NCBI GenBank assembly: GCA_937871935.1
Contig: CALMQI010000440.1
Location: 1 to 35,070, forward strand
Origin: an uncultured Burkholderiales bacterium
GTDB lineage: Bacteria > Pseudomonadota > Gammaproteobacteria > Burkholderiales > Burkholderiaceae_C
Length of the DNA: 35,070 nucleotides
Direction of reading: 5' to 3'
Part shown: in pieces, positions 12,188-30,966 of the stretch
Layout: each line of letters opens with the position of its first letter
Numbering within the stretch: the first letter of the stretch is position 1
Made by a program: the position numbers and the translations under genes
The notes under the pieces: generated by a model
What the model was told of the DNA's origin: nothing
The model's database searches: none
What the model saw: the letters and a program-made list of their open reading frames with translations, nothing else

Positions 12188-12934
12188 TCACGGCATAGAG
12201 GACTGGCCGCGTGACGAAGTCGGCGCGTTATCGGGGTCCGGCGGCGCCAGCCGGAGTGTCACGCGTTGGCTTGGGCGCCAAGTGAGCGCAACGAAGGGAG
12301 CCAGCGTGGCCAACGTGAGCTCCACGACCCCCACTTGAAGGATCCACAAAGCCCCGACCACGCGCGCGCCCAAGCGCAGGTGGGCCCGCCGCGACGCGGT
12401 GTTGTAGCGCGTCATTCGGCTGAACGACCACCGCACGCCGCGCTCCTGCAGGAAGGCGCTGCCGCCGTGCCAGACGGCCATGAAGCCGATGCCCATGCGC
12501 TGATCCGGCAGCACGTAGAAGTCGAAGTCGAACACAGACTGTGCGGGTGCTGCCAACTCGAAGGTGCACCGCGCCTCGTCTTCGCGGTAGCGTTCAAAGC
12601 CCATCCACAGGTAGCCGAGCAGCTGCTCCTTCCGGTAAGCCGCCAGGCAACGGGCACCCTGACGGAAGCGCTCGGCCTTGATATCCTCGCGCGCTGGCAT
12701 CAGCGCGACCTCAGGGTCACCTTCATGTACCTCGCGAAAGCTCAGGTTCTTCGCCAGGCCGGCCGGCAGCAAGGGCTTGACGGAGATGGGCTGCGCCATC
12801 AGCTCGAAGTACTGCAGCGCGCAGCGCAGCGGCAGGGCCTGCAGCAGGCGGTGCACCACGTACAAGGAACCCGCGAAGGCGCCGAACTCCTTGAACGGTC
12901 CGGCCACGCGGCCCCAGAAGGTCCTGTTCTTCAT
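12188..12934 (-). CDS. GNAT-like acyltransferase in exosortase A accessory set
   Basis: This 248-residue soluble protein has the C-terminal half of a GNAT fold: FDFYVLPDQRMGIGFMAVW resembles the beta4/alpha3 acyl-CoA region, and SRMTRYNTASRRAHLRLGA matches the usual late GNAT segment in which Asn and Ser lead into the helix with H.rLG. The N-terminal half is not recognisable. It is the first gene of the minus-strand run, immediately upstream of the acyl ligase (4-base GTGA overlap possible) and facing a divergent ACP gene. An acyl transfer from CoA or ACP to an amine, perhaps the decarboxylase product, is a reasonable inference. The acceptor is unknown. Confidence 0.6.
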   Translation of the reverse strand: MKNRTFWGRVAGPFKEFGAFAGSLYVVHRLLQALPLRCALQYFELMAQPISVKPLLPAGLAKNLSFREVHEGDPEVALMPAREDIKAERFRQGARCLAAYRKEQLLGYLWMGFERYREDEARCTFELAAPAQSVFDFDFYVLPDQRMGIGFMAVWHGGSAFLQERGVRWSFSRMTRYNTASRRAHLRLGARVVGALWILQVGVVELTLATLAPFVALTWRPSQRVTLRLAPPDPDNAPTSSRGQSSMP

Positions 12935-13199
12935 CTACGGCCCGCACCGGTGGAAAGTACGGGGCAAGCTGCGCAGGGCGCAGGCCCGCCGGAAATCCAG
13001 TTTGCCACATTCGTCCTCGGCTCCCAGCCAAGTTTCCTCACCCCGGCCGAGGTCCCGCCGCTCAGATCTTGGTTCGAAGGACACTGCTTCCGTGACGGGC
13101 GACCGCGCCGCAAGCGCCTCGCCTCTGCGCGAAACCTAGAATCCAATGCTTCGCTGCAACGACGCCCGGCGCCCTGACGTAAGGGGCCGAGACTCCCTG
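12935..13199. promoter_or_regulatory. Divergent promoter region splitting the exosortase A accessory set
   Basis: These 265 bases separate the GNAT start (minus) from the ACP start (plus) and contain no convincing gene. A TAGAAT hexamer at 13137-13142 could serve as a -10 for the plus-strand operon, but no matching -35 is seen at 16-18 bases. The layout implies promoters in both directions and gives a single control point for both halves of the accessory set. Confidence 0.4.
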
Positions 13200-13451
13200 A
13201 TGAACACGATCAATGACGTGAATCGCCTGCTGGACGATGTGCTGAGCCTGTCGGGCCGAACTGCCGGGTTCTCCCGCGAGACGCCACTGCTCGGCGCAAT
13301 CCCCGAGCTCGACTCGATGGCCGTGGTGTCGCTCATCACCACGATGGAAGAGCGCTTTGGCATCACCGTTGACGACGACGACGTGGACGGCGCCACATTC
13401 GCTAGCGTCGGCTCGCTGGTCGACTTCGTCGAGCGCAAGCTCGGCCGCTGA
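13200..13451 (+). CDS. Acyl carrier protein (first of three), exosortase A-associated
   Basis: This 83-residue acidic helical protein has the phosphopantetheine attachment serine Ser39 in the motif ELDSMAVVSLI, followed by EERFGI and the usual acidic third helix. ACPs carry acyl or aminoacyl groups as thioesters in the cytoplasm. The ATG at 13200 was chosen over one at 13146 because ACP homology begins there. It starts the plus-strand run (ACP, hydrolase, hydrolase, glycosyltransferase) and faces the acyl ligase and GNAT genes across the divergent promoter. It is therefore the likely partner of that ligase. Confidence 0.9.
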   Translation: MNTINDVNRLLDDVLSLSGRTAGFSRETPLLGAIPELDSMAVVSLITTMEERFGITVDDDDVDGATFASVGSLVDFVERKLGR

Positions 13452-13469
13452 GTACCGGCTCCGCGACCC

Positions 13470-14348
13470 GTGCACTACGCGCCGTACGCGGGCCAGCCGC
13501 GCGCGTTCTTCGACGGCCCTAGAGGCCGCGCGACCTGCTTCTGCCTGCACCACGTGCCGGCGTCCGCGCCACGAGGCGCGGTGCTGCACGTAGCGGCCTT
13601 CGCCGAGGAGATGAACAAGTCACGCCGCGCCACGGCGCAGGCTGCCCGCGCGCTGGCCAAGGCCGGCCACGTCGTACTACAGCTGGATCTCACTGGCACC
13701 GGCGACGCGCTTGGCGACTTTGCCGACGCGCGCTGGGAAGACTGGCTGGACGAGGTGCAGTGGGCAATCGACTGGCTGCGCCAGCGCCACGACGCGCCGC
13801 TGTGGCTGTGGGGCCACCGCCTGGGCGCGGTGCTAGCCGCGCAGGCTGCCGCGCGCGGCGGCGTTGCCTGCCACCACCTGCTCTGGCAGCCGGTGATGCA
13901 GGGCCGCCAGGTGGTACGCAATTTCCTGCGCCTGAGGGCCGCCGCCGGGTGGGCCGGACCGGGCGCCAAGACTGTGGTTGAGGCCACGCGCGCCGAGCTG
14001 GCCGCGGGCCGGCTAGTAGAGATCGCCGGCTACGGGCTGCACCCGGCGCTGGCCGCGGCACTGGAAGTCGCCGTGCTGGAACCACCGCCCCTGCACGGCG
14101 ACAGCGCGCAGCGCCTGGTGTGGCTGGAGGTGGCTGGCGACGAACCGGCGCTGATGCCGACGTCGCTAGCGGCGGTAGGGCTCTGGGCCACGGCCGGCTA
14201 CGTGGTCGATGCGAAGGCAGTTTCCGGGCCGCCGTTCTGGCAAACAGTGGAGATCGAGGACGCTCATGCGCTCGTGGACGCCACTTGCGCGGCGCTGGAA
14301 GCAGCCGCCGGCGGCTTTGCGCCATTGAATGCGAACGAGACCGCATGA
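13470..14348 (+). CDS. Alpha/beta hydrolase-like protein, exosortase A-associated (hydrolase 2 type)
   Basis: This 292-residue protein has alpha/beta-hydrolase features: HHVPASAPRGAVLHVAAFAEEMNKSRR near the N-terminus corresponds to the oxyanion strand-loop, and DLTGTGDALGDF to the following loop. Where the nucleophile elbow GxSxG is expected it reads GHRLG, with Arg in place of Ser. It matches the group described as exosortase A system-associated hydrolase 2, found with a sister hydrolase as here. The GTG start at 13470 lies 18 bases after the ACP stop, and its stop overlaps the next ATG in an ATGA. With no visible nucleophile it may be non-catalytic or bind a thioester-linked intermediate. 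That is inference. Confidence 0.8.
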   Translation: MHYAPYAGQPRAFFDGPRGRATCFCLHHVPASAPRGAVLHVAAFAEEMNKSRRATAQAARALAKAGHVVLQLDLTGTGDALGDFADARWEDWLDEVQWAIDWLRQRHDAPLWLWGHRLGAVLAAQAAARGGVACHHLLWQPVMQGRQVVRNFLRLRAAAGWAGPGAKTVVEATRAELAAGRLVEIAGYGLHPALAAALEVAVLEPPPLHGDSAQRLVWLEVAGDEPALMPTSLAAVGLWATAGYVVDAKAVSGPPFWQTVEIEDAHALVDATCAALEAAAGGFAPLNANETA

Positions 14349-15250
14349 GCGGCGCCGCAGCTTGGCAGGAGAAAGCGCTCGCCATTGCCTGCAGCGGCGA
14401 GACTCTGTTCGGCATCGTCACGCTCCCGGCAGCGCCGGCGGGCGAGGTGGGCGCACTCATCGTCGTTGGCGGCCCGCAGTACCGCGCCGGGAGCCACCGC
14501 CAGTTTGTGCTCTGGGCGCGCGCCTTCGCCGAAGCCGGCGTTCCCGCGCTACGCTTCGACGTACGCGGCATGGGCGACAGCAGCGGCGCGACGCGCCCCT
14601 TCACCGCGCTGGATGACGACCTCGGCGCGGCGGTGGATGCGCTACTTGCCGCCTGCCCGTCGTTGCGCCGCGTGGTGTTGTGCGGGCTGTGCGACGCCGC
14701 GTCGGCATCGCTGATGTACCTCGACGCCAAAGCCGACCGGCGCGTGGCCGGCCTGATACTGCTGAACCCTTGGGTCCGCAATGAGCAGTCGCAGGCGCGC
14801 ACCTATGTCCGCCACTACTACCTGGCGCGGCTGACCAGCAGCGCCTTCTGGCTCAAGGTGCTGCGCGGCGGGATCGCGATCGGCGCACTGCGCGAGCTGG
14901 CGGCCAACCTGCGCCGTGCACGCGCCGACGATGGCCCTGCGCGGAGCGACGCCAGGCGCGACTTCATTGGTCGCATGGCAGCGGGGCTGCGCGCCTTCCC
15001 CGGGCCGGTGCTGCTGGTGTTGAGCGGCGGGGACTACACGGCCAAGGAATTCCTCGAACACATTGCCGTCGACACGCGCTGGTCCGGCCTGCTCACGTGC
15101 CCACGGCTCCAGCGCCAAGACCTCGACGGTGCAGACCACACGTTTTCGGCCACAGCCGATCGCCGCGCACTCGAACGCGCCAGCATCGACTGGATGGCGT
15201 GCCAAGGCTGGGCCAACACGCCCCTGAACCGACCGGAGCCCAGCACATGA
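14345..15250 (+). CDS. Alpha/beta hydrolase, exosortase A-associated (hydrolase 1 type)
   Basis: This 301-residue alpha/beta-hydrolase fold protein starts at the ATG of an ATGA overlap with the previous gene. It has VVGGPQYRAGSHRQF, the RGMGDSSG loop, and a nucleophile-elbow position reading CGLCDAASA, so cysteine occupies the usual serine place. An Asp near LVLSGGDYTAKEF and a late His in LDGADHTFS complete a possible Cys-Asp-His triad. This suits a thioesterase or acyltransferase acting on ACP-bound material, although no activity is established for the family (exosortase A system-associated hydrolase 1). Its stop overlaps the glycosyltransferase start, again as ATGA. Confidence 0.82.
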   Translation: MSGAAAWQEKALAIACSGETLFGIVTLPAAPAGEVGALIVVGGPQYRAGSHRQFVLWARAFAEAGVPALRFDVRGMGDSSGATRPFTALDDDLGAAVDALLAACPSLRRVVLCGLCDAASASLMYLDAKADRRVAGLILLNPWVRNEQSQARTYVRHYYLARLTSSAFWLKVLRGGIAIGALRELAANLRRARADDGPARSDARRDFIGRMAAGLRAFPGPVLLVLSGGDYTAKEFLEHIAVDTRWSGLLTCPRLQRQDLDGADHTFSATADRRALERASIDWMACQGWANTPLNRPEPST

Positions 15251-16491: not shown

Positions 16492-17420
16492 CCGAAACGC
16501 GACTTTCGCGCGCTCTGCGCCAGCGAGCGCGTAGCGTAGTCAATGCCGCTGAACAAGGCGTAGTCTGCCATGCTGCGTACGCGGCCCAACCCGTAGGCGC
16601 CGAGGTTGCCGTGGCAGTCCACCAGCGCAGTCAGCCGCTCGCGCGCCTGCGCCTCCCTCTGCGCCGAGCGCACAGTACGCTGCATATCGTGCTCTGAAGA
16701 CCAGTGCATCACCCGCGGCCGGTTACCGGGAAGGGTGTAGAGGTGGAACATCGGCATACCGGGGATGTGGCAAATGTCCCAGCCGCGGGTCCACGCACGC
16801 AATGCGAAGGCCTGCTCCTCGCCGGGGAACTACAGGCGCGGGTCATAGGGCAGTTCGTCGACCAGAAGGCCGGGCGCAAACAGGCAGCCACCGGCGACAT
16901 GAAACCCCGGCACCTGTTCATCGGCCTCGACCGTGACCCCTTCGAACATCAGCACCGGGCTGTGAGGAGTGAATCCGCTTTCGCCGCGCACCACGGATGC
17001 CAATACGCTGCGGGTGACCGGCTGGCCCACGGGGTGGCAGTCGCGCAGCGTGAAGGGGTTTGGATAGTAGGTCAGGATCGTGCGCGGATTCGTTTGTGCA
17101 CACCGCCTCGCCCATCGAATGGGCCGCTCGTTTCAGCCTGCCTCGAACCACATATGCGATTCGATCTGCAGATACCACTCCCCACCTTCGTATAGCGCCA
17201 TCGCGAGCGCACGCGCCCAGCGAGGCCAACGCGACTCCAGCGCTGGCACGCGCGTGAAGCACACGTGGTGCGCGACCGCCCAGCGGCCGATAGGCGCCAC
17301 CTGGGGCCTCCTGCTCCACCATGCCCACATACACGCGCGATGGGCCGGCCGCCTGCGATCGCACGCTCGCCAGCGTGGGCGGCAGCATTACATTGACTAG
17401 GTCCAGCCCATCGCCCTTGG
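16485..17420 (-). pseudogene. Inactivated glycosyltransferase (PF11397 GlcNAc-transferase-like)
   Basis: Reading the minus strand, three pieces rebuild one glycosyltransferase: LVN..LASVRSQAA..VYVGMVEQEAP (17300-17410), then RVPALESRWPRWARALAMALYEGG and WYLQIESHMWFEAG (17133-17270), and then a C-terminal part with PNPFTLRD, GGCLFAPG, FPGEEQAFALRAWTRGWDI and LGAYGLGRVR down to a stop at 16485. Damage is visible: a frameshift within about 17270-17300, a TGA at 17133-17135 where the family has Trp, and a TAG at 16830-16832 where it usually has an aromatic residue (Tyr by one base). The N-terminal start is missing or unrecognisable. An intact relative would be about 300 residues. Sequencing error could explain one lesion but hardly three. 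Confidence 0.8.
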
Positions 17421-17547
17421 GGTTGTCTGCAGCACATCGCCGACCACCACGAGGTCGAAGGTCTCGTCCGGGTTGTCGCGCCACCACGTGGCCGCGGCTG
17501 CACACCGGCCGAACGGTGCCCGCTGGACTTGCGGGCATGATTCGGAC
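17421..17547 (-). other. Possible gene remnant upstream of the dead glycosyltransferase
   Basis: In one minus-strand frame this stretch reads ATWWRDNPDETFDLVVVGD, which looks like genuine soluble protein, possibly a Rossmann-type segment, rather than random frame. It ends at a TAG soon after and has no start codon or upstream continuation before the AAC(3)-like gene begins. It may be the frameshifted N-terminus of the dead glycosyltransferase or scrap of another lost gene. No function is assigned. Confidence 0.25.
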
Positions 17548-18423
17548 ATGAGCAAACGTGCAATGTCACTGCTCCGGAACTGGAAACAGGCGCTGAAGGC
17601 ACAGCGCTCGCAGTGGCGCGCTGCCTGGGCTCGACAGTTCGGCGGCTACGGCCCGCCGGAGCTACTAAAGGCGCTGCTGGGTATGGGCATCGGCCCCGGC
17701 AGCTGCGTGATGCTGCACAGCTCTTTCTCCAGCGCCAACGGCTTCCGCGGCACGATCCCGGAGCTGATCGACACCTTTGTCGAAGCTGTGGGTCCGCAGG
17801 GCCATCTGATGATGGTGTCACTGCCGTACCGCTCGGCATCGATCGACTGGCTGCAGAGCGGCCGCACATTCGACGTGCGCCGGACGCCATCGATGATGGG
17901 CATGGTGTCCGAGGTGTTCCGCCGTCGCGACGGCGTGCTGCGTAGCCTTCACCCCACGCACCCCATCCTGGTGCATGGACCTCGTGCGGCGGAGATCATC
18001 GCCTCCCACCCGGATTGCCTGCACCCTTGCGGGCCGGGTTCACCGTTCGCCTGGCTGCTCGAGCTCGACGGTCGCTCGGTGTTCTTCAACGTGCCGATCG
18101 ACATGTTCACGTTCTTTCACTACCTGGAGCACCACGTAAGCGCGCAACTGCCGTTCCCGTTGTACACGGATGTGCCGTTCGACGCGCCTGTCGTCGATGC
18201 CAGCGGACAGCGGCGCACCGTGCGCACCTACGCGTTCGCCCGCGATGCGATCCAGCGGCGGCGGCCTGAACGGCTGTACGACGAACTCCGCAGGCGCGGG
18301 CTGGTGGCCCAGGTGCGGGTCGGAGCATCCGAATTGCTGGCCGTCAGCGTTCGCGACGCGCTCGCTTGCACCGACGACCTGCAACGCCAGGGCCGGCTCT
18401 TCTACGACATGCCACAGGCCTGA
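17548..18423 (+). CDS. AAC(3)-fold N-acyltransferase, probable sugar acyltransferase
   Basis: This 291-residue protein of the aminoglycoside N3-acetyltransferase family (Antibiotic_NAT fold) has VMLHSSFSSANGFRGT near residue 48, the LVEAVGPQG-like stretch, SMMGMVSEVFRRR, and the conserved HPTHPILVHG containing the catalytic histidine region. Members in polysaccharide loci are thought to acylate amino groups on nucleotide sugars rather than to inactivate drugs. Given the neighbouring acyl-building genes, a role in transferring that acyl group to a sugar is plausible. The ATG at 17548 was chosen because upstream in-frame sequence belongs to the decayed region. It is followed by 106 bases without a recognisable feature. 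Confidence 0.8.
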   Translation: MSKRAMSLLRNWKQALKAQRSQWRAAWARQFGGYGPPELLKALLGMGIGPGSCVMLHSSFSSANGFRGTIPELIDTFVEAVGPQGHLMMVSLPYRSASIDWLQSGRTFDVRRTPSMMGMVSEVFRRRDGVLRSLHPTHPILVHGPRAAEIIASHPDCLHPCGPGSPFAWLLELDGRSVFFNVPIDMFTFFHYLEHHVSAQLPFPLYTDVPFDAPVVDASGQRRTVRTYAFARDAIQRRRPERLYDELRRRGLVAQVRVGASELLAVSVRDALACTDDLQRQGRLFYDMPQA

Positions 18424-18529
18424 CGGCCCGGCAACTTGTCACGGCTGCTGTGCCGGCCCCCACGAGACAGGGGATCCGCGCAACGGAATGGGGATGATGC
18501 GCCACCGGGACTTCCGCTAACCTCGTCGC

Positions 18530-19327
18530 GTGCTGCCTGCCCACCCCGACAACGCCGTCCCGCCACCGACGCCCAAGGCACCGTTTGGCGGGCGTTGGGT
18601 GCTCGTCACCGGCGCCTCGTCCGGCTTGGGGCGAGCGATCGCCATCGAACTCTCGGCACAGGGCGCACATGTCGTGTTGTGCGGGCGCGACGAGACCCGC
18701 CTTGCTGAGACCGCCACGGCACTGGGGAGCGCCACATACCGGGTACTGCCGTTGGACCTGTCCAACCACGCCGAGCTCGTGCCAGCGGTACAACGGATAC
18801 GCGCCGACGTCGGGCCGCTATACGGCCTTTGCCATGCCGCCGGTGTCGTGCAGACGCGGCCTTTGGCGTCCACCGGTGTCGACGTCGTCCGAGCCCAGAT
18901 GGACGTCAACGTCTTCGCCGGCTTGGAGTTGGCGCGCGCGGTGTGCCGGCGCGACGTGATGGATGCCAGCGGTGGCAGCCTGCTGTTCCTGTCGTCGGTC
19001 TACGGCCGCGCCGGCATGGCCGGGCTGGTGGGCTATAGCGCCACCAAGGGCGCGCTCGTCGCCGCCGTGCGGGCACTGGCGGTGGAGCTGGCCCGCCGCA
19101 ATATCCGCGCCAACTGCCTCTCGCCCGGGCTCGTGATGACCGCGATGACCGAGCAGTCGCTCGGTCTTCTGTCGGCAGCGCACGTCGAACACCTGAAGTC
19201 TGCCCACCCGCTCGGCCCTGGCCTGCCGACCGATGTGGCGCACGCCGCGGCATTCCTGCTGTCTCCGTTGTCACGCTGGATCACGGGGACCGATCTTCCC
19301 GTGGACGGCGGCTACACGGCTCAATAG
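18530..19327 (+). CDS. Beta-ketoacyl-ACP reductase-like SDR (FabG type)
   Basis: This 265-residue classical SDR has the NADP loop TGASSGLG (27-34), CHAAGV in the usual NAG position, and a catalytic triad Ser156-Tyr169-Lys173 with the normal YxxxK spacing. It ends in the LPVDGGYTAQ dimer-interface motif. FabG-type enzymes reduce 3-ketoacyl-ACP to 3-hydroxyacyl-ACP. The GTG start at 18530 leaves a 20-residue Pro-rich lead before the fold; no better start is available. It heads the cassette with an ACP, a dehydratase, an enoyl reductase and a FabH-like synthase, which is the main reason to read it as a ketoacyl reductase and not as a sugar dehydrogenase. Confidence 0.8.
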   Translation: MLPAHPDNAVPPPTPKAPFGGRWVLVTGASSGLGRAIAIELSAQGAHVVLCGRDETRLAETATALGSATYRVLPLDLSNHAELVPAVQRIRADVGPLYGLCHAAGVVQTRPLASTGVDVVRAQMDVNVFAGLELARAVCRRDVMDASGGSLLFLSSVYGRAGMAGLVGYSATKGALVAAVRALAVELARRNIRANCLSPGLVMTAMTEQSLGLLSAAHVEHLKSAHPLGPGLPTDVAHAAAFLLSPLSRWITGTDLPVDGGYTAQ

Positions 19328-19399
19328 TTTTCACCGAATCGGCCGCGATGCGCGCCTTGGAGATCAGCCCCTCCTTCACTTCACAATCCGAGGTCCCCC

Positions 19400-19642
19400 A
19401 TGAATACACAAGACGCCCTGAGCTGGATCGCCGAGGTCTTCGAAGAATCGGTCGACCGCATCAAACCCGGCACGGCTCGTCAGTCCATCGCGGGCTGGGA
19501 CTCGCTGGGAACGTTGTCGCTGATCGCGGCGCTGGACGAGCGGTTCAACATCCATCTGAGTGAAACCGAGATCGAGGCCATGGCCAAGGTCGACGACATC
19601 CTGGCCCTGCTGAAGCGCGAAGGCGCGTTGGCCGAGGCCTGA
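19400..19642 (+). CDS. Acyl carrier protein (second of three)
   Basis: This 80-residue ACP has the phosphopantetheine serine Ser35 in GWDSLGTLSLI, then DERFNIHL and an acidic helix. It is short and acidic as usual. It lies 72 bases after the FabG-like gene and 8 bases before the FabZ-like gene, within an apparent acyl-elongation cassette, and is probably the carrier for that cycle. Compared with the housekeeping AcpP motif (DSLD) the serine context DSLGT is divergent, as in dedicated secondary-pathway ACPs. Confidence 0.9.
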   Translation: MNTQDALSWIAEVFEESVDRIKPGTARQSIAGWDSLGTLSLIAALDERFNIHLSETEIEAMAKVDDILALLKREGALAEA

Positions 19643-19650
19643 GCCGCGCG

Positions 19651-20103
19651 ATGCGCTTTCTGCTGGTCGACCATATCGACGAGCTTGAGCCGGGCCGTCG
19701 TGTGCTGGCGCGCAGCACGGTGCCGCATGATCTGGAACTCTTTCGTGACCACTTCCCCGGATTCCCCGTGATGCCTGGTGTGCTGCTCACCGAAATGATG
19801 GGCCAGGCTGCGGCCAAGGCGCTGGACGCCGAACGCCTGCCGAGAGGCAAGGCGCTGTTGGCGAAGATCCTGTCAGCCAGCTTTCGTGATTGGGTGCGCC
19901 CCGGCGACCAGTGCACCCTGCGCAGCACGATCTCAGCCAACGAGGCCCGTTACGCGAACGCCGAATGCGAACTCGAGGTACGCGGCCAGGTGGTGGCACA
20001 GTGCAAGCTGATGTTCACTTTCATGCCCGTCGAGAAATTTGCGCCCGGCTTTCGCGATGAGCAGCTCGACGCCTTCCTCGCCAACAGGGGTGAACCGTCA
20101 TGA
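19651..20103 (+). CDS. 3-hydroxyacyl-ACP dehydratase (FabZ-like hotdog)
   Basis: This 150-residue hotdog-fold protein carries the FabZ active-site signature HFPGFPVMPGVLLTE, with His34 and Glu48 spaced 14 apart as in FabZ. It should convert 3-hydroxyacyl-ACP to trans-2-enoyl-ACP. Its stop overlaps the start of the enoyl-reductase-like gene as ATGA, so the two are translated together. It is unlikely to be the housekeeping fabZ, which lives in the lpx operon in this type of organism (family knowledge); here it is embedded in a polysaccharide locus with its own ACP. Confidence 0.88.
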   Translation: MRFLLVDHIDELEPGRRVLARSTVPHDLELFRDHFPGFPVMPGVLLTEMMGQAAAKALDAERLPRGKALLAKILSASFRDWVRPGDQCTLRSTISANEARYANAECELEVRGQVVAQCKLMFTFMPVEKFAPGFRDEQLDAFLANRGEPS

Positions 20104-20861
20104 GCGACAGCTTCCAACTCGGCGGCCGCACGGTGCTCGTCACCGGCGGCACGCGTGGCATCGGGCGCGCGATTTCAATCGAGCTGGCGAAGGCCGGCGC
20201 CGCGGTGGTGGCCAACTATGCCCGCAACGACGCCGCCGCGCAGTCGCTGGCCGATGCCGCAGCCGCCGAATCGCTCACACTCGAAACGCTGCGTGCTGAC
20301 CTCTCCATGCCCAAGGGCATGGAGGCCGTGCAGGAGCGGCTGGCCGCGCTGCCGGCGGGCAATCTGTCCATCGTGCACGCGGCGGCGAGCGGCGTACACC
20401 GCCCATTCGACCAACTGACCCTTCGGCACTGGGACTTCACCCTCGCCCTGAACGTGCGTGCGTTCTTCGAATTGATGCAAAAGGTGCGCCCGGCCCTGGG
20501 CCATGGCTCGGCCGTCGTTGCGGTGTCGTCGGCCGGCGCAGTGCGCGCGGTGCCCGCCTATGCTGCGATCGGCAGTTCGAAGGGAGCGCTGGAATCGTTG
20601 TGCCGCCACCTTGCTTCGGAACTGGCCCCACAGGGCATCCGCGTCAACATCGTGTCGCCCGGCAGCGTGATGACAGAAGCCTGGGACAGCTTCCCCGACA
20701 AGGGTCGCCGCGCCGCCGAGGCGGTTGCCCGCACGCCGCTGGGCCGCCTGGTGACGCCGGCCGAGGTGGCACACCTCGTGCGTTTCCTCATCAGCCCCGC
20801 GTCCGGCGGCATCGTAGGCCAGACGCTGGTTGTCGACGGCGGCGCCCGCATCGTCGATTGA
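20100..20861 (+). CDS. FabL-type enoyl-ACP reductase (SDR with Y-x6-K)
   Basis: This 253-residue SDR has the NADP loop TGGTRGIG (15-22). Its active site reads PAYAAIGSSKGALE, placing Tyr154 and Lys161 with six residues between them. That Y-x6-K spacing is the hallmark of enoyl-ACP reductases FabI/FabL, not FabG (Y-x3-K). Other stretches agree with Bacillus FabL: AAASGVHRPF, RHWDFTLALNVRA and GQTLVVDGG. It would reduce trans-2-enoyl-ACP to saturated acyl-ACP with NADPH. Its ATG overlaps the dehydratase stop. Automatic annotation would probably call it FabG. The distinction matters because it completes a full elongation cycle. Confidence 0.75.
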   Translation: MSDSFQLGGRTVLVTGGTRGIGRAISIELAKAGAAVVANYARNDAAAQSLADAAAAESLTLETLRADLSMPKGMEAVQERLAALPAGNLSIVHAAASGVHRPFDQLTLRHWDFTLALNVRAFFELMQKVRPALGHGSAVVAVSSAGAVRAVPAYAAIGSSKGALESLCRHLASELAPQGIRVNIVSPGSVMTEAWDSFPDKGRRAAEAVARTPLGRLVTPAEVAHLVRFLISPASGGIVGQTLVVDGGARIVD

Positions 20862-20889
20862 CCTGTCCGTTCCCTGCACAGAGACCGCC

Positions 20890-21936
20890 ATGAGCCGCTC
20901 TTCGATCGATGGATTTCGCGTCGCCGGCGTTGCCACCTGCCTGCCCCCACGCGCCGCCGACAACCTCGATCCGGCGCTTGGGTTCGACCCCGAAGAAGTG
21001 CGCAAGGTCGTGGCCATGGCCGGCGTGCGCCAGCGCAGGGTGGTCGACGACGGCGTCACCGCCGCCGACCTCAGCTTCGAAGCCGCCGAGGCGCTTTTGC
21101 AGCGCCTGGGCTGGGCGCGCGAGTCGGTCACCGGGCTGATCTTCGTGACGCAAAGCCCCGACTACTTCCTGCCCAGCAGCGCCTGCCTGCTGCACCGCTG
21201 GCTTGGGCTTTCCGATCAGTGCGCGGCCTTCGACGTCGGCCTCGGCTGCTCGGGCTACCCGTATGGGCTGTACCTCGCGGCCACGATGCTCAAGGCCGGC
21301 GGCCACCAGCGCATCCTGATGCTGCACGGCGAGACGCCGAGCCGCTTCGTCGACCCCTCGGACCACGCCACCACGCTGCTGTTCGGCGACTCGGGTTCCG
21401 CCACCGCTGTAGAACTCGCACCCGGCGCGCCCGGCGCGCACTTCGTGCTGCAGACCGACGGCAACGGCTACGCCGGGCTGATCATCCGCGGCGGCGCGTT
21501 CCGCGACCGGCGCCCCGCCGACCCGCGCGACCTGGCATTGCGCATGGACGGTGCCGGCGTCTTCAACTTCACGATCAAGCGCGTGCCGCCACTGGTGGCC
21601 GACACGCTGGCGCTGGCCGGCTGCGCGGTGCCCGACGTGCACGCCTACGTCTTTCATCAGTCCAACCGCTTCATGATCAAGCACCTCACCAAGAAGTGCG
21701 GAATCCCGGAAGACCGCGTGCCGATGACGCTCGACGATTGCGGCAACTGCGGCGGCCCTTCGGTGGCGGTGACGCTCACGCGCACCATGCCCGCCGAGCG
21801 TGACGCCGCGCGACGCGTGATGCTGCTCGGCTACGGCGTCGGTTTGTCGTGGGGATCGGTGCTGGTCGACCTCGAGCCCGGCGTGCCGCTGCTCGACGCC
21901 GCCTACACCGGCCAGGTGCCTCGTCAGGGCGCCTGA
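20890..21936 (+). CDS. Beta-ketoacyl-ACP synthase III-like enzyme (FabH family)
   Basis: This 348-residue thiolase-fold enzyme has the complete FabH triad: Cys120 in VGLGCSGYPYGL, His256 in YVFHQSNRFMI and Asn286 in DCGNCGGPSVAV. FabH enzymes condense an acyl-CoA starter with malonyl-ACP. The ATG at 20890 lies 28 bases after the enoyl reductase stop; an upstream in-frame ATG adds nothing family-like. Six bases separate it from the asnB-like gene. It is somewhat longer than FabH (about 320) and divergent, so the starter may not be acetyl-CoA. It provides the carbon-carbon bond-forming step for the adjacent reductase, dehydratase and enoyl reductase. Confidence 0.87.
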   Translation: MSRSSIDGFRVAGVATCLPPRAADNLDPALGFDPEEVRKVVAMAGVRQRRVVDDGVTAADLSFEAAEALLQRLGWARESVTGLIFVTQSPDYFLPSSACLLHRWLGLSDQCAAFDVGLGCSGYPYGLYLAATMLKAGGHQRILMLHGETPSRFVDPSDHATTLLFGDSGSATAVELAPGAPGAHFVLQTDGNGYAGLIIRGGAFRDRRPADPRDLALRMDGAGVFNFTIKRVPPLVADTLALAGCAVPDVHAYVFHQSNRFMIKHLTKKCGIPEDRVPMTLDDCGNCGGPSVAVTLTRTMPAERDAARRVMLLGYGVGLSWGSVLVDLEPGVPLLDAAYTGQVPRQGA

Positions 21937-21942
21937 TACCCC

Positions 21943-23889
21943 ATGTGCGGCATCGCCGGCATCTGGGCCGCCCCCGGCGCTGCGCCACCGCGCACCGAGG
22001 ATGTGGCCGCAATGATCGGCGCACTTCGCCATCGCGGGCCCGACGGTGAAGGTCTGTGGTTCGACGGCCCGATCGCGTTGGGCCATGCCCGGCTGTCGAT
22101 CATCGACCTGGCCGGCGGCGCGCAGCCGATGGGCAACGAGGACGGGCGCATCCAGGTCGTCTTCAACGGTGAGATCTTCAACTACGTGGAGCTGCGCGCC
22201 GAGCTGCTGGCACGTGGGCATGCATTTCGCACCGCATCGGACACCGAAGTGCTGGTGCACCTCTACGAAGAGCATGGTGACGACTTCCTGTCCCGGCTGA
22301 ACGGCCAGTTCGCGATCGCGCTGTGGGACGGCGGGCGCCAACGCCTGCTGCTCGCGCGCGACCCGGTCGGCATCCGCCCGCTGTTCCACACCACGGTGGC
22401 TGGGCAGCTGCTGTTCGGCTCCGAAGTCAAGGCGCTGTTCGCGCTGCCGCGCGTGCCGCGTGCGCTGTCGGCCGAAGGGCTGGCCTCGGTGTTCAGTTAC
22501 TGGTCGGTGCTGCCGCCGGGCACGGTGTTCGAGGGCGTGCGGAGCCTGCCGCCGGGCCACCGGCTGGTGATCGACGCGCAGGGCCAGCGCCTCGAGCGCT
22601 GGTGGGACTGGCCCTACGCCAACGCCGAGACGCCCGCCTGGAGCGACGAGCGCTGGGCCGACGAGTTGCACACGCTGCTGCTCGACGCCGTGCGCCTGCA
22701 GCTGCGCGCCGACGTGCCGGTGGGTGCGTACCTTTCAGGCGGGCTCGACTCGTCGATCATCACCACGCTGATCCGCCGGCGCACGAACACGCCGCTGCGC
22801 AGCTTCTCGCTCACGTTCGAAGACGCCGAGTTCGACGAACGCTCGCATCAACGCGAGCTGGTGCAGAACCTGGGCACCGAGCATTCGTCGATCGAAGCCA
22901 GCAAGGCGGCGATCGCGGCCGCCTTCCCGCGCATGATCCGGCATGCCGAGTCGCCCGTCGTGCGCACGGCGCCGGTGCCGATGATGCTGCTGGCCGACAG
23001 CGTACGTGCCGCGGGTTACAAGGTGGTGCTCACCGGCGAGGGTGCCGACGAGGCCTTCGGCGGCTACGACATCTTCAAGGAGGCGGCGATCCGCCGCTTC
23101 GTGGCGCGCCAGCCCGGCTCGCGCTGGCGCGGCGCGCTGCTGCAGCGCCTGTACCCTTATCTGGCAGCCTCGCCGGCCGCGGGTCGTGCCATGACGCAGA
23201 GCTTCTTCGGCGTCGGGCTCGGCCGCGTGGGCTCGCCCGGCTTCGCGCACATGCTGCGCGCCGCCACCACGCGGCGTGTGCTGCCGTTCTTTCACGCCGA
23301 CTTGCAGCCGGCGCTGCAGCGCTTCGACCCCGACACGGCGCTTGCGGCAACCCTGCCCGCCGACATCATGCGCTGGCCGGCCCTGGCGCGCGACCAGTAC
23401 GTGGAGGCGCACACGCTGATGTCGGGCTACCTGCTCTCCTCGCAGGGCGACCGAATGGCGATGGCGGCCTCCATCGAAGCACGCTTTCCGTTCCTGGATC
23501 CGCGCGTGCTGGCCCTCAGTTGCCGCCTGCCGGCGCGCCTGAAGCTCTGCGGCCTGCACGAGAAGGTGCTGTTGCGCCGTGCATTCGCAGCCGAGCTGCC
23601 GCCCTCGATCGGCCAGCGCACCAAGCAGCCGTATCGTGCGCCAGAGAGCGCCTGCTTCTTCGAGCCCGGCGCCGACGGTGCGCGCCTGCGCGAGCCCACG
23701 GCCGAGCTGCTCGGCCCGGTGAGCCTGCGCGACGCGGGCCTCTTCGACCCCGTTGCAGTGGGCCGCCTGGCGGAGAAATGCCGCAACGGCCGCGCCATCG
23801 GCTTCGGCGACAACCAGGCCTTCGTGGGCATCGTCTCGACGATGTGGCTGCACCGCCAGTTCGTGCAGGGGAACCATGCTGCTGCATGA
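21943..23889 (+). CDS. asnB: AsnB-like glutamine-dependent amidotransferase
   Basis: This 648-residue class II amidotransferase has the N-terminal nucleophile Cys2 (MCGIAG) and glutaminase motifs RHRGPDGEG, HARLSIIDL and FNGEIFNY. The synthetase half begins near 240 with the PP-loop SGGLDSS (265-271) and a later GEGADEAFGGY. In asparagine synthetase it amidates aspartate through an acyl-adenylate. In polysaccharide loci such homologues (for example WbpS) are thought to amidate uronic acids. Here, with tviB/tviC and ugd supplying uronates, sugar amidation is a good guess; amidation of a carrier-bound acid is the alternative. The next gene starts within its last 14 bases, indicating tight coupling. 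Confidence 0.88.
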   Translation: MCGIAGIWAAPGAAPPRTEDVAAMIGALRHRGPDGEGLWFDGPIALGHARLSIIDLAGGAQPMGNEDGRIQVVFNGEIFNYVELRAELLARGHAFRTASDTEVLVHLYEEHGDDFLSRLNGQFAIALWDGGRQRLLLARDPVGIRPLFHTTVAGQLLFGSEVKALFALPRVPRALSAEGLASVFSYWSVLPPGTVFEGVRSLPPGHRLVIDAQGQRLERWWDWPYANAETPAWSDERWADELHTLLLDAVRLQLRADVPVGAYLSGGLDSSIITTLIRRRTNTPLRSFSLTFEDAEFDERSHQRELVQNLGTEHSSIEASKAAIAAAFPRMIRHAESPVVRTAPVPMMLLADSVRAAGYKVVLTGEGADEAFGGYDIFKEAAIRRFVARQPGSRWRGALLQRLYPYLAASPAAGRAMTQSFFGVGLGRVGSPGFAHMLRAATTRRVLPFFHADLQPALQRFDPDTALAATLPADIMRWPALARDQYVEAHTLMSGYLLSSQGDRMAMAASIEARFPFLDPRVLALSCRLPARLKLCGLHEKVLLRRAFAAELPPSIGQRTKQPYRAPESACFFEPGADGARLREPTAELLGPVSLRDAGLFDPVAVGRLAEKCRNGRAIGFGDNQAFVGIVSTMWLHRQFVQGNHAAA

Positions 23890-25363
23890 AGCGTTCGAGG
23901 CCACGGCCTCCCGGGTGCCCGCGAAGACCGCCCTCGTCTGCGGCGACGAGCGGGTGAGCTATGGCGAGTTGCAGCGCCGCGTGCATGCGCTAGCCGCGCA
24001 GCTGCAGGCTGCCGGTGTGGCGCCCGGCGACCGCGTGGTGCTGCTGCTCGAAGGCGACGTGTCGTACGCCATTGCGGTGCATGCCGTGTTGTGCGCCGGC
24101 GCGGTGTTCGTGCCACTGACCGCGACCACCAAGCCCGACAAGCTGGCTTTCGTGCTGAACGACACCGAGGCGACGACGCTGCTGGCCGACGCGCGGCTGC
24201 GCGGAACATGGGCCGATCTGCCGGTGCGTTGCCCCGCACTACGCCGCGTCATCGCCACCGATGGATTCGCCGCCGATGGCGAACGCCCACCGGCACCGCG
24301 CATCGACCAGGATCTGGCGGCGATCATCTACACCTCGGGCAGCACCGGCACACCCAAGGGCGTAATGCTCACGCACCTGAACATGCTGAGTGCCTGGCGC
24401 TCGGTGCAGGCCTACCTGGGCCTGCGCACTGACGACGTGATCGGCTTGGCGCTGCCGCCGACCTTCAGCTACGGGCTCTACCACCTGCTGATGGGCCTGG
24501 GCCTCGGCGCCACCGTGGTGCTGGAGCGACAGGCGGCCTTTCCGCTGCGGCTGGCGCAGGGGCTGCAGCGCGAGCGCGCCACGGTCATACCCGGCGTGCC
24601 GACGTTGCTGGCGAGCCTGCTCGACCTACCGCAACGCGCGACGATCGACCTCTCGGCGCTGCGCCTGGTGACCAACGCCGCGGCGGCCCTGCCCACGCCG
24701 CTGGTGCCGCGCCTGCTCGAGGCCCTGCCGCGAGCCGACCTGTTGCTGATGTACGGCATGACGGAGTGCAAGCGCATCAGCTACCTGCCCGCTGAGGAGG
24801 CCGCACGCCGGCCCGGCAGCGTGGGCCGTGGCATGCCGAACCAGCAGCATTGGCTGGCCGACGAGCTAAGCCGCCCGCTGCCACATGGCTCGACCGGTGA
24901 GTTGGTGGTGCGCGGCGCCCATGTGATGCGTGGCTACTGGCGCCGCCCGCAGGAGACCGCGCAGCGCCTCCGCCCCAGCCCGATCCACGGGGAAAATGTG
25001 CTTCACACGGGCGACCTGTTCCGCACGGATGCCGAGGGTTGGCTGCACTTCGTGTCGCGTTTGGACGACATCATCAAGACGCGCGGCGAAAAGGTCGCTC
25101 CACGCGAGGTGGAAGAGGCAATCCACCGCTTGCCCGGCGTGGCCGCATGCGCCGTAATCGGCGTGCCGGACGATGCGCTCGGCCAGGCCGTCAAGGCCTA
25201 CGTCGTTCGACGGCCGGGGTCTGAACTGACCGTGCGGGAAGTCACGCGCCACTGCCTGGGTCACCTTGAGAACTACATGGCCCCCAAGCAAGTGGAATTC
25301 GTCGATACGCTGCCGACCACCGAATCCGGCAAGATCCGACATGCCACTCTGCGCGGCGGCTGA
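23876..25363 (+). CDS. AMP-forming acyl/aminoacyl ligase (ANL superfamily)
   Basis: This 495-residue adenylating enzyme has the P-loop YTSGSTGTPKG (152-162), the LMYGMTECKRISYLP substrate/ATP region, the GDLFRTDAEGWLHF hinge region with RLDDIIKTRGEKV, and the C-terminal catalytic lysine in TTESGKIRHATL. It should load an acid onto the ACP encoded 32 bases downstream. The ATG at 23876 overlaps the asnB-like stop by 14 bases. It is related to the exosortase A-associated ligase at 10512-12137 in overall plan and in the MYGLTE/MYGMTE region, so the locus holds two activation systems. The acid is unknown; an amino acid or hydroxy acid is possible. Confidence 0.88.
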   Translation: MLLHEAFEATASRVPAKTALVCGDERVSYGELQRRVHALAAQLQAAGVAPGDRVVLLLEGDVSYAIAVHAVLCAGAVFVPLTATTKPDKLAFVLNDTEATTLLADARLRGTWADLPVRCPALRRVIATDGFAADGERPPAPRIDQDLAAIIYTSGSTGTPKGVMLTHLNMLSAWRSVQAYLGLRTDDVIGLALPPTFSYGLYHLLMGLGLGATVVLERQAAFPLRLAQGLQRERATVIPGVPTLLASLLDLPQRATIDLSALRLVTNAAAALPTPLVPRLLEALPRADLLLMYGMTECKRISYLPAEEAARRPGSVGRGMPNQQHWLADELSRPLPHGSTGELVVRGAHVMRGYWRRPQETAQRLRPSPIHGENVLHTGDLFRTDAEGWLHFVSRLDDIIKTRGEKVAPREVEEAIHRLPGVAACAVIGVPDDALGQAVKAYVVRRPGSELTVREVTRHCLGHLENYMAPKQVEFVDTLPTTESGKIRHATLRGG

Positions 25364-25394
25364 CCGCCCCGGGCATACACCGAACGAGCAACCC

Positions 25395-25643
25395 ATGGAC
25401 GACATCAAGGCCGCGCTGCGCCGCTTCATCGAAGATAACTTCATGTTCGGCGCCGGTGGCGCGCCGCTTGCCGATAGCGACTCTTTTCTCGAGCGCCACG
25501 TACTCGATTCGACCGGTTTTCTCGAGCTGATCGCACACCTGGAGGAAACCTACGGCATCAAGGTCGGCGACGACGAGATGGTGCCGGAGAACCTCGACAG
25601 CATCGACGCCGCAGCAGCATACGTCACGCGCAAGCGCGGCTGA
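25395..25643 (+). CDS. Acyl carrier protein (third of three)
   Basis: This 82-residue ACP has the modified serine Ser39 in VLDSTGFLELIAHLEE, followed by TYGIKV and an acidic C-terminal helix. DSTGFLE is the pattern common in carrier proteins that pair with stand-alone AMP ligases and not with FAS, which agrees with its position right after the ligase gene. ATG 25395 gives the standard length; an upstream in-frame ATG would add an unrelated 43 residues. Confidence 0.9.
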   Translation: MDDIKAALRRFIEDNFMFGAGGAPLADSDSFLERHVLDSTGFLELIAHLEETYGIKVGDDEMVPENLDSIDAAAAYVTRKRG

Positions 25644-25666
25644 ACGCCGGCATTGGGAGCGCATTC

Positions 25667-26653
25667 GTGAGCACACCGACTTCACTCACGCCGGCGGTTC
25701 TGGACCTGGATTGCCTGGCCGAGGCTGACCGCGTGGCGGCCTGGATGCGCGAATGCCTGGCGCGCCGGCTGCATCGCCGCGGCTTCGTGGTTGCGATCTC
25801 CGGCGGCATCGACAGCTCGGTGTGCGCAGCGCTGGCCGTCCGCGCGGTCGGACCGGGCAAGGTCTTCGGCCTGCTGATGCCCGAGCGCGATTCCAGCGGC
25901 TTCAGCACCGAGCGCGGTTTGCAGCTCGCCCGCCATCTGGGTATCGAGCATCAGGTGTTCGACATTGCGCCCGCACTGCAGGCGCTGGGCTGCTATGCGC
26001 AGCGCGACGAGGCGATCCGCCGCGTCTTCCCGGCCTATGCAGAGGGCTGGCGCAACAAGATCGTGATCGCCGGAGGCCTGGACGGCGGGATCAACTACTT
26101 CAAGCTCGTGGTCGCCGACCCGGCCGGAATCTTGCACGAAGCGCGGCTGCCGGTCCGCGAATTCCTGCAGATCGTAGCGGCCACCAACTTCAAGCAGCGC
26201 GTGCGCAAGACCATGGATTACTTCCACGCCGACCGCTTGAACTACGCCGTGATCGGCACGCCGAACCGGCTCGAATACGACCAAGGCTTCTTTGTGAAGG
26301 TCGGCGATGGCGCAGCCGATCTCAAACCGATCGCGCACCTCTACAAGACCCAGGTTTACGCCATGGCGCGCGCGCTCGGACTGCCCGAGGCGATCTGCAG
26401 CGCGTTGCCGACCACCGACACCTACACGCTGTCGCAAGGGCAAGACGAGTTCTACTTCGCACTGCCCTTTGTGCAGATGGACCTTGCACTGTGGGCGGTG
26501 AATCACGGCCTTGGCGCCGCCGAGATCGCTGCCGCGCTGCAGCTCACTACAGCGCAGGCGCAGCGCGTGCACGACGATATCGCAGCCAAGCGGCGCGCAG
26601 CGGCCTACCTGCACGCCGAGCCGGCGATCATCGAGACGGTGCTGCCGCCATGA
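25667..26653 (+). CDS. NadE-like PP-loop amide ligase
   Basis: This 328-residue ATP-pyrophosphatase is related to NAD synthetase: PP-loop ISGGIDSS (44-51), ATNFKQRVRKTMDYFHADRL in the NadE RMR-type helix, VIGTPNRLEYDQGFFVKVGD and DLKPIAHLYKTQVYAMA. There is no glutaminase domain, so it uses ammonia or amide nitrogen delivered by a partner, possibly the AsnB-like protein. The nicotinate-site region is expanded by an insert (INYFKLVVADPAGILHEARL), suggesting a substrate other than deamido-NAD. The GTG start at 25667 is supported by GGGAGC seven bases upstream. Its stop overlaps the next ATG (ATGA). Housekeeping NadE is the less likely alternative because of the setting. Confidence 0.75.
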   Translation: MSTPTSLTPAVLDLDCLAEADRVAAWMRECLARRLHRRGFVVAISGGIDSSVCAALAVRAVGPGKVFGLLMPERDSSGFSTERGLQLARHLGIEHQVFDIAPALQALGCYAQRDEAIRRVFPAYAEGWRNKIVIAGGLDGGINYFKLVVADPAGILHEARLPVREFLQIVAATNFKQRVRKTMDYFHADRLNYAVIGTPNRLEYDQGFFVKVGDGAADLKPIAHLYKTQVYAMARALGLPEAICSALPTTDTYTLSQGQDEFYFALPFVQMDLALWAVNHGLGAAEIAAALQLTTAQAQRVHDDIAAKRRAAAYLHAEPAIIETVLPP

Positions 26654-27858
26654 GGACCCGGGTCCGCTGGGTATTTGGCCAGCTCACGCTCCCAGCTGCC
26701 GCCCGCAACGAGCAGCGCCACGATGCCGCGGGCCTTCCGGCGGAGGATCCCGGTAACGAACGCGTGCTCCCGGCGCTGTTTGCCTGGCTGGCCCGCGCGC
26801 AAGACCGCTCGGCGTCGCATGACGGCGGCGTGGCGCGCGACTTCAGCCTGCTCGACGGCTGGGCCACTTCATACCCCGAGACCACCGGCTACATCATCCC
26901 GACCTTGCTCGAGTGGGCGCGCCGCACAGGTGAGGCCGAGTGGCGCGAGCGCGCTCTGCGCATGGCCGACTGGCTGGTAGGCATCCAGTTCCAAGAAGGC
27001 GGATTCCAGGGCGGCAAGATTGACTCGACGCCGGTGGTGCCTGTGACCTTCAACACCGGGCAGATCCTGCTCGGCCTGGTCGCCGCCGAGACCGAGACCG
27101 GACACTACCACGAGCCGATGACGCGCGCGGCTGACTGGCTGGTTCGCACGCAGGACGAAGACGGCTGCTGGCGCCGCCACGGCTCGCCGTTTGCCGATGC
27201 CGCTGACAAGCAGTACGACACTCACGTCGCCTGGGGCTTGTTCGAGGCAGCCCGCATCGAGCCCGCGCGTGGCTGGGGCGAAGCGGGGCTGAAGAACGTA
27301 CGTTGGGCGCTATCGGGGCAGGCACCCAACGGCTGGTTCCAGAGCTGCTGCCTGTCCGACCGGGCGCAGCCGCTCACGCACACGCTGGGCTACGCGCTGC
27401 GCGGCGTGGTCGAGGCCTGGCGCTTCCAGCCCGCAAGCGACTTGCTGGCCGGTGCCGAACGCGCCGCGCTCGGCATCATGAGCGCGCTACGACCAGACGG
27501 CTTCCTGCCCGGGTGTCTTGGCCCGGACTGGTCGCCACAGGCCGATTGGGCGTGCCTGACCGGTACCGTACAGATAGCGCATAGTTGGATGTTGCTGTCC
27601 CAAATAACCGGCAGGGCTGACTACCTTGACGCCGCGCGCCGCGCCAACGCCTTCGTGCGGCGCACCGTGCGCCTGGACGGACCGCTTGATCAGCGCGGCG
27701 GCGTCAAGGGCTCGTTCCCCATCGACGGCGAGTATGGCCAATGGTCTTACTTGAACTGGGCGCCGAAGTTCACCGCCGACAGCCTGATACTCGAGTTGGA
27801 CATGACTCGCCAGAACGGCGGCGCGAAGCTCGAAAGTCCGGCGCGCGGGCGTCAATAG
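26650..27858 (+). CDS. Alpha/alpha-toroid protein, predicted polysaccharide-active
   Basis: This 402-residue soluble protein without a signal peptide is built of repeated helix-hairpin units with aromatic/glycine turns: SYPETTGYIIPTLLEWA, GGFQGG, FNTGQILLGL, WLVRTQDEDGCWR, YDTHVAWGLFEAAR, HTLGYALRGVVEA and WACLTGTVQIAHSWML. This pattern is that of the (alpha/alpha)6 barrel shared by terpene cyclases, unsaturated glucuronyl hydrolases and the C-terminal domain of glucuronyl C5-epimerases. I cannot choose among these. It is translated with the NadE-like gene through an ATGA overlap, so it may handle the modified sugar or polymer. The 168 bases after its stop hold no gene I can recognise. Confidence 0.6.
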   Translation: MRTRVRWVFGQLTLPAAARNEQRHDAAGLPAEDPGNERVLPALFAWLARAQDRSASHDGGVARDFSLLDGWATSYPETTGYIIPTLLEWARRTGEAEWRERALRMADWLVGIQFQEGGFQGGKIDSTPVVPVTFNTGQILLGLVAAETETGHYHEPMTRAADWLVRTQDEDGCWRRHGSPFADAADKQYDTHVAWGLFEAARIEPARGWGEAGLKNVRWALSGQAPNGWFQSCCLSDRAQPLTHTLGYALRGVVEAWRFQPASDLLAGAERAALGIMSALRPDGFLPGCLGPDWSPQADWACLTGTVQIAHSWMLLSQITGRADYLDAARRANAFVRRTVRLDGPLDQRGGVKGSFPIDGEYGQWSYLNWAPKFTADSLILELDMTRQNGGAKLESPARGRQ

Positions 27859-30963: not shown

Positions 30964-30966
30964 CAT

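Follow-up and report, generated by a model that had tools for sequence, protein, structure and literature searches.

A candidate one-turn fatty-acid line for a surface-polysaccharide substituent in an uncultured Burkholderiales bacterium

Why should a locus for exopolysaccharide (EPS) carry the enzymes of a fatty-acid elongation cycle? The question is raised by contig CALMQI010000440.1 of an uncultured Burkholderiales bacterium (C440 of genome G000, 6.57 Mb in 463 contigs), which was analysed in its entirety up to position 35070 and is called the window here. Open reading frames (ORFs) resembling FabG, an acyl carrier protein (ACP2), FabZ, FabL and the condensing enzyme KASIII (FabH-like) form one uninterrupted row on its plus strand (18530–21936). 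The first-pass annotation had described these five genes, correctly placed, as a unit of their own, and thereby cut off co-conserved genes on both sides; the conserved block extends from 17563 to 27858, with the order AAC(3)-like acyltransferase, FabG, ACP2, FabZ, FabL, KASIII, AsnB, Lig2 (an acyl ligase), ACP3 (a further carrier), NadE-like protein and an α/α-toroid protein. With a probability of about 0.55, this block is a dedicated one-turn type II fatty-acid line that provides a substituent for a surface polysaccharide.

All five core genes have intact active sites, and every catalytic residue named in the first-pass annotation was found at its quoted number. The FabG-like 3-oxoacyl-ACP reductase (18530–19327, with a start at GTG 18530 or at 18599) matches PF13561 with an E value of 4e-51 and holds Ser 156, Tyr 169 and Lys 173, numbered from the GTG start. 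It is followed by the dedicated carrier ACP2 (19400–19642), with Ser 35 in a DSLG motif, which scores 20.3 bits against PF00550 (cut-off 20.8) and also stays below the cut-off of the acyl carrier protein family NF002148 (E 1e-6), and by the FabZ-like 3-hydroxyacyl-ACP dehydratase (19651–20103), with His 34 and Glu 48, for which NF000582 gives 86.5 bits (E 1.5e-24) against a cut-off of 113. The enoyl-ACP reductase (20100–20861) shows Tyr 154-x6-Lys 161, the spacing of enoyl reductases, and lacks Y-x3-K; its top family match is NF005975 (206.6 bits against an equivalog cut-off of 328), and among 160 matched PDB sequences the enoyl-ACP reductase 3oic ranks first (E 4e-42) as its nearest solved structure. 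Since the equivalog cut-off is not reached, the protein is best termed FabL-type rather than FabL. The row closes with KASIII (20890–21936; Cys 120, His 256 and Asn 286, counted from 20890), which reaches 204.8 bits with NF006829 (cut-off 249), and the intergenic gaps measure, in order, 72, 8, −4 and 28 bases. Because none of the five proteins reaches an NCBIfam cut-off among the families shown (for the two short-chain dehydrogenases/reductases, the best 25), they are divergent members of their families. The active sites are nonetheless kept in the aligned relatives: the KASIII triad in 28 of 28, the ACP2 serine in 24 of 24, the FabZ pair in 9 of 9, the FabL Tyr and Lys in 8 of 8, and the FabG Tyr and Lys in 11 of 11, with the FabG Ser in 10 of 11. 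Compared with the nearest relative, the Burkholderiaceae metagenome-assembled genome of locus L013, whose KASIII is 94% identical, the five genes have dN/dS values of 0.08–0.14; they are under purifying selection, and the row is therefore not due to chance.

The core KASIII, reductase and ACP adjoin one another and are distinct from the housekeeping set of the genome. A separate FabH, 33% identical to the KASIII of the block, lies next to PlsX on contig C96, together with FabD-, FabG-, ACP- and FabF-like ORFs (judged by eye from the translations), and separate copies of FabZ and NadE were located on contigs C91 and C368. The first-pass annotation spoke of a complete cycle, which is correct inasmuch as all enzymes of one turn are encoded, but no FabD, FabB/F or phosphopantetheinyl transferase was found among the window proteins scanned, and malonyl-ACP loading must therefore come from elsewhere.

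How far the row belongs together with its neighbours was judged from 27 KASIII loci, namely the window, L013–L033, L039, L085, L086, L095 and L096. Here, L013–L033 are the 21 closest of 26 loci from one seeded scan of a species collection (L034–L038, 27–36% identical, were left out), a scan that starts from short exact peptide patterns and so misses relatives; genes in the relatives were predicted by a codon-usage caller trained on the window genes, and the loci were then scored by tblastn. ACP2 stands beside KASIII in all 27 loci. An AAC(3)-like gene occurs in seven, and all seven also carry FabG, FabZ and FabL, in line with the co-occurrence that the first-pass annotation had proposed to look for. 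FabZ plus FabL, present in 7/7 loci with AAC(3), are found in 2/19 scorable loci without it (20 minus L032, truncated by the contig end behind FabZ); the corresponding Fisher test gives p = 5e-5, a value that is too favourable, as the loci are related and the labels clustered on the KASIII tree, on which the label groups need three changes in all and AAC(3) needs two. The order AAC(3)-FabG-ACP2-FabZ-FabL-KASIII-AsnB-Lig2 is kept in 7/7 block loci, and ACP3 and NadE follow in the six that are not cut by a contig end, such that the full block is present in six genomes besides that of the window, one of them truncated in this way.

The remaining KASIII loci show other company. FabG, FabZ and FabL are present in L022 with an adjacent polyketide synthase (PKS) gene, FabZ and FabL in L033 (Verrucomicrobiales) with an adjacent hexapeptide transferase, and FabG alone of the three in L023 and L024. 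The adjoining megasynthase of L014 consists of an AMP-binding domain and a PKS module, that of L016 of condensation and AMP-binding domains according to Pfam, as does, judging from its 78–81% identity, that of L015, and in L018 and L019 a similar AMP-binding megasynthase-like protein starts at the contig end. A GNAT-like gene of the c7 type, supported by Pfam in L028 (PF00583), lies beside ACP2 in 13 of the 20 loci without AAC(3); the c12 ORF of L014–L019 and the d6 ORF of L087 are GNAT-like by appearance and have no Pfam match. In the pyk-fba neighbourhood common to L014–L019, L017 carries the full AAC(3) block, and L014–L016 carry a version with non-ribosomal peptide synthetase (NRPS)/PKS-type genes, of which L018 and L019 show the start; the neighbourhood is an exchange site for these cassettes. 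In L037 (Lachnospiraceae), ACP-like matches, FabG, an AAC(3)-family protein (27%), KASIII (30%) and an AMP-ligase stand in a row with a WcaJ-like gene, apparently a separate instance of the same KASIII/AAC(3) partnership. A spread of KASIII by plasmids was considered and rejected, since a search of 72,556 plasmid records at E 1e-60 gave a single distant match (36.6%).

Polysaccharide genes adjoin the full block in six of its seven loci, the window and five of the six others. L013 has relatives of the exosortase hydrolase and the GT4 glycosyltransferase of the window in addition to a PF11397 glycosyltransferase; L017 has a Wzx-type protein (PF13440) and a pyruvyl transferase, followed by RfbF and PIG-L; and L039, in genome G197, combines EpsD, exosortase genes, TviB, a C-methyltransferase, RfbF, PIG-L and DUF4910 within ≈ 30 kb. 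L085 and L086 share C-methyltransferase, epimerase, RfbF, PIG-L and DUF4910, with a Wzx-type PF13440 protein in L085. The association with PIG-L suggested by the first-pass annotation was borne out as well: RfbF and PIG-L lie within ≈ 25 kb of the block in 5/7 loci, the others being L020 and L013, with contigs of 29.9 and 10.3 kb. Neither gene was detected in the 20 stretches (at most ≈ 10 kb on each side) around NadE-like genes without a KASIII match.

Which enzyme might deliver the acyl group? The best candidate is the AAC(3)/Antibiotic_NAT-family acyltransferase (17563–18423, plus strand; PF02522, E 2e-44), encoded directly upstream of the FabG-like gene, 106 bases apart, in 7/7 blocks, with five His residues kept in 5/5 aligned sequences, that of the window included. 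Five NCBIfam families of AAC(3) were matched, the best with 77.1 of 270 bits (equivalog) and none above its cut-off, and the best score to solved family members is 67 bits. An identity as aminoglycoside resistance gene was rejected on these scores, far below the AAC(3) cut-offs, and the genomic context argues for a biosynthetic acyltransferase instead. At more than 50% identity the gene occurs in 2 of 200 family genomes searched, its own and G197, both with the block, while seven further ones have relatives of 27–35%. The GNAT-like ORF at 12188–12934, named as an alternative deliverer in the first-pass annotation, was abandoned: it adjoins the exosortase-A cassette, has no Pfam or NCBIfam match, and no counterpart was found with other blocks or in the flanks of G197, G1155, G1158, G1140 and G1019, so that a partnership with the five-gene core is unlikely.

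Downstream of KASIII, the block continues with a quartet that had been left out of the first-pass annotation. It begins with an AsnB-like glutamine-dependent amidotransferase (21943–23889, plus strand) with Cys 2 and SGGLDS, which exceeds the cut-off of TIGR01536 (494 bits) and remains below that of the exosortase-A amidotransferase TIGR03108 (414 bits, cut-off 817). Lig2 (23876–25363, plus strand), an AMP-forming acyl ligase and the presumed loader of ACP3, reaches 374 bits with TIGR03098 (cut-off 592), its top PDB matches being NRPS adenylation domains and acyl-CoA ligases. ACP3 (25395–25643, plus strand) is a second carrier with Ser 39 in DSTG, invariant in 39/39 sequences; it passes PF00550 with 22.8 bits, and its best NCBIfam matches, NF058660 and NF052616, are below their cut-offs. 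Last comes a paralogue of NadE, an ammonia-type amide synthetase (25667–26653, plus strand; NF002048, 473 bits against 313), with the PP-loop SGGxDS present as S45GGIDS, which travels with ACP and ligase genes while the genome has another NadE.

The quartet has a distribution of its own. NadE-like orthologues are present in 27/399 family genomes, including all four with a KASIII of at least 66% identity (G000, G197, G005 and G033), and in 18 of the 21 other genomes of the named KASIII loci; those of L013, L029 and L030 lack it, and the L013 contig stops before the position in question. For KASIII and NadE in 200 family genomes, a Fisher p of 1.7e-4 results on the assumption that these 200 belong to the 399, and no conclusion is based on it. 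Leaving aside the own genome, G197 and G005, all covered by other loci, the 27 family genomes gave 24 stretches, all of which hold Lig2, ACP3 and NadE together, 19 of them with AsnB and 16 with a PrmC-like methyltransferase. In L092, L097, L098, L099 and L101 AsnB is absent by tblastn and the quartet is a trio. Twenty of the 24 carry the quartet or its Lig2-ACP3-NadE core without KASIII, a count that includes L103, whose genome (G033) has KASIII elsewhere. NadE-like relatives were also found in 116 plasmid records, 76 of them from Sinorhizobium; on pSymB of S. meliloti the gene stands with ligase and ACP, AsnB appearing as fragments by tblastn, and on a Nitratireductor plasmid with ligase, ACP and AsnB. 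Within the genus of the window, three of six genomes searched have the NadE-like gene, in each case beside EPS genes like those of the window (WcaJ in L090; TviB, Lig1 and hydrolases in L104), and L104 contains two tandem NadE-like genes (9264–11245; 54% and 49% identical to that of the window) beside an exosortase cassette. At one adenylation-motif position Lig2 has Asp in 18/39 sequences, from stretches with the PrmC-like gene, and Ser in 14/39, that of the window included, with no PrmC-like gene in view; the remaining 7/39 have other residues. Asp at this position marks amino-acid domains, and the two sub-types may load two different acids. No description of the quartet was found in the literature searched, which was covered in part; it is a fairly widespread module for which no assigned product was found.

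Read from the gene content, the intact active sites, the purifying selection, the co-conservation and the genomic context, the direction of flow, the starter, the product and the acceptor sugar would be as follows. KASIII would condense a starter with malonyl-ACP2; reduction by FabG, dehydration by FabZ and a second reduction by the FabL-type enzyme would then leave a saturated acyl group, longer than the starter by two carbons, on ACP2. The AAC(3)-family enzyme would move this group to an activated sugar, more probably to an amine than to a hydroxyl; the PIG-L deacetylase encoded in the adjacent sugar cassette is a plausible source of such a free amine. The quartet would most likely use its own carrier to make and load the starter or another acyl piece. 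The first-pass annotation had also considered a 3-hydroxyacyl end product; this is less likely, as all seven AAC(3) blocks retain both FabZ and the enoyl reductase. As far as we know, the acyl substituents of exosortase-A type EPS are little charted. A private turn of fatty-acid synthesis on a dedicated carrier suggests a single specific group within reach of mass spectrometry, and the block a reusable enzymatic kit for sugar acylation other than acetylation.

Several points weigh against this assignment. All five core enzymes score below the NCBIfam cut-offs, and their substrates may therefore differ from what the family names imply; the window proteins scanned include no recognised amino-sugar aminotransferase; and to our knowledge there is no chemistry for this EPS. 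In L020, the full block lies between a suf operon and an acetyltransferase, and polysaccharide genes were not recognised anywhere on the contig (29.9 kb). The KASIII-ACP2 core occurs in 20 other loci without AAC(3), 15 of them without FabG, FabZ and FabL. Relatives of the KASIII-ACP core are flanked by genes of NRPS/PKS or GNAT type, in most cases in the absence of the reductive enzymes; the core is therefore not tied to polysaccharides, and product and acceptor vary. Polyketide company of this kind, which the first-pass annotation had named as speaking against its proposal, is thus found for the core, but not for the full set.

Along these lines, the block might make a small diffusible metabolite, such as a short polyketide- or peptide-like amide, its position among EPS genes being a matter of chance or shared regulation. 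KASIII, ACP2 and the quartet do lie beside NRPS/PKS-type genes in L014, L015, L016 and L022, and near the start of the AMP-binding megasynthase-like protein in L018 and L019; around the block of L020 no polysaccharide genes are visible, and the quartet stands alone on S. meliloti pSymB and on the Nitratireductor plasmid, with no sugar genes listed nearby in gene tables that are incomplete. A metabolite is nevertheless doubtful in view of the polysaccharide genes next to 6/7 blocks, of RfbF and PIG-L near 5/7 blocks versus 0/20 quartet stretches without KASIII, and of the AAC(3) family itself, which acts on amino sugars. In a simpler arrangement, acetyl-CoA would serve as starter and AAC(3) would transfer butyryl (or 3-hydroxybutyryl), the quartet having a separate task such as the formation of a uronamide. 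AsnB-like amidation of uronic acids is known, for example from WbpS, and the quartet or its core does without KASIII in the 20 stretches mentioned. The comparable systems of Pseudomonas syringae and Flavobacterium psychrophilum are described without a quartet in the accessible parts of the respective reports (PMC3927599, PMC6519341). We consider such a division of labour unlikely, as the quartet has its own ACP and ligase, for which uronamide formation has no need, and the NadE-like gene is present in all four family genomes with KASIII of at least 66% identity and in 18 of 21 others.

A more elaborate version combines both halves of the block into a two-carrier line, which is put forward tentatively: AsnB, the NadE-like protein and Lig2 would build an amide-bearing starter on ACP3, KASIII would pass it to malonyl-ACP2, FabG, FabZ and FabL would saturate the product, and interchangeable acyltransferases would deliver it, AAC(3) or hexapeptide enzymes in sugar loci and GNATs or NRPS/PKS elsewhere. 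One core would then give rise to EPS decorations in some bacteria and to small metabolites in others, and the quartet would represent an as yet undescribed biosynthetic module, capable of working by itself as well. That the row merely represents spare genes for membrane fatty acids, a backup of FabH, FabG, FabZ and enoyl reductase, is very improbable. FabL-type reductases can replace FabI elsewhere, but the row has its own divergent ACP and is stably linked to AAC(3) and the quartet, the genome already holds housekeeping FabH, PlsX and FabZ, and the presence is patchy, KASIII being found at E 1e-75 in its own genome only among 399 genomes of the order and 398 of the phylum; a housekeeping copy was rejected on these grounds.

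The surroundings of the proposed acyl line are those of a polysaccharide locus. The block ends with the α/α-toroid protein (26650–27858, plus strand), which has a fold like that of carbohydrate enzymes (model pLDDT 73.9) and recurs in 6/7 blocks, the contig of L013 ending too early to include it; in L085 and L086 it is encoded on the other strand. It has one weak Pfam match (PF13243, 27.7 bits) and no clear family; its predicted fold matches unsaturated glucuronyl hydrolase and cellobiose 2-epimerase with Z scores of 29–31 and squalene-hopene cyclase with 27.5, and the fold does not decide between kinship to sugar epimerases/hydrolases and to terpene cyclases. A sugar cassette follows (28027–33744, plus strand), composed of C-methyltransferase, NAD-epimerase, RmlC-like protein, DUF4910, the cytidylyltransferase-like RfbF (TIGR02623, 223 bits, below 300) and the PIG-L deacetylase; its DUF4910/DUF2172 aminopeptidase-like protein (30967–32310) recurs beside RfbF, PIG-L and C-methyltransferase in L085, L086 and G197. 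To the left of the block lie genes for UDP-sugars and a WcaJ-type transferase in addition to exosortase-A EPS genes, and the locus further includes genes of WecB/TviB/GalE type, for a uronic acid. The exosortase-A EPS cassette (9259–15250) comprises a pyridoxal-phosphate-dependent decarboxylase, Lig1, the GNAT-like ORF, ACP1 and two hydrolases. Within it (9259–13451), the decarboxylase is paired with an ACP and an AMP-ligase with the motif FDAG, which is of the amino-acid type, a pairing suggestive of an amino acid being decarboxylated while bound to the ACP. Between cassette and block, a glycosyltransferase gene of the GlcNAc type (PF11397; 16488–17388, minus strand) has decayed, with stops and a frame break, and is intact in L013; remnants of a methyltransferase neighbour it (17406–17630).

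The first-pass proposal, that the locus makes an acyl group of its own for a sugar, is consistent with these data and has precedent in known systems. The viosamine island of P. syringae pv. tabaci contains the KASIII vioS, the reductase vioR, acp and the transferase vioB, with orfB–orfE of P. aeruginosa PAK as counterparts, and deletion of vioR removes modified viosamine from flagellin (PMC3927599). As in the window, KASIII, reductase and ACP are dedicated to the N-acyl group of one sugar and stand beside a transferase in a glycan locus; the product there is 3-hydroxybutyryl, VioB is a 213-residue acetyltransferase in contrast to the AAC(3)-family protein of the window, and the seven ORFs listed in the accessible part of the report include no dehydratase, enoyl reductase or AsnB/ligase/ACP3/NadE set. 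For the O-polysaccharide of F. psychrophilum, 3,5-dihydroxyhexanoyl on Qui2NAc4N was proposed from gene content and structure (PMC6519341). Its R-group genes wfpC–wfpG likewise combine a private ACP, a reductase and an acyltransferase with condensing enzymes inside a polysaccharide locus, yet with two condensing enzymes and retained hydroxyls, as opposed to one KASIII and full reduction in the window; KAS-ACP-KAS-FabG rows do occur in the family of the window (L042, L043 and L044).

The window also resembles the XrtA/PEP-CTERM EPS loci, with TIGR03098–TIGR03101 above their cut-offs and XrtA elsewhere in the genome (contig C160), and the Lig2 and AsnB of the block, similar to TIGR03098 and TIGR03108 at scores below the cut-offs, form a second, different set. 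For exosortase loci with an ACP, one paper, on stieleriacines, turned up in the literature searched. An activated-sludge Aquincola strain requires both PEP-CTERM genes and a gene cluster for EPS to form flocs (PMC9850573; the word 'acyl' is absent from the accessible text). The AAC(3) aminoglycoside acetyltransferases and FrbF, finally, share PF02522 with the acyltransferase of the block and are its sequence relatives. The combination of genes as a whole was not encountered in the literature searched, which was covered in part. A dedicated set for making the acyl group of a sugar is hence of a kind already known from other bacteria, and what is new, as far as found, is the full reductive loop, the delivery of AAC(3) type and the AsnB-ligase-ACP-NadE quartet.

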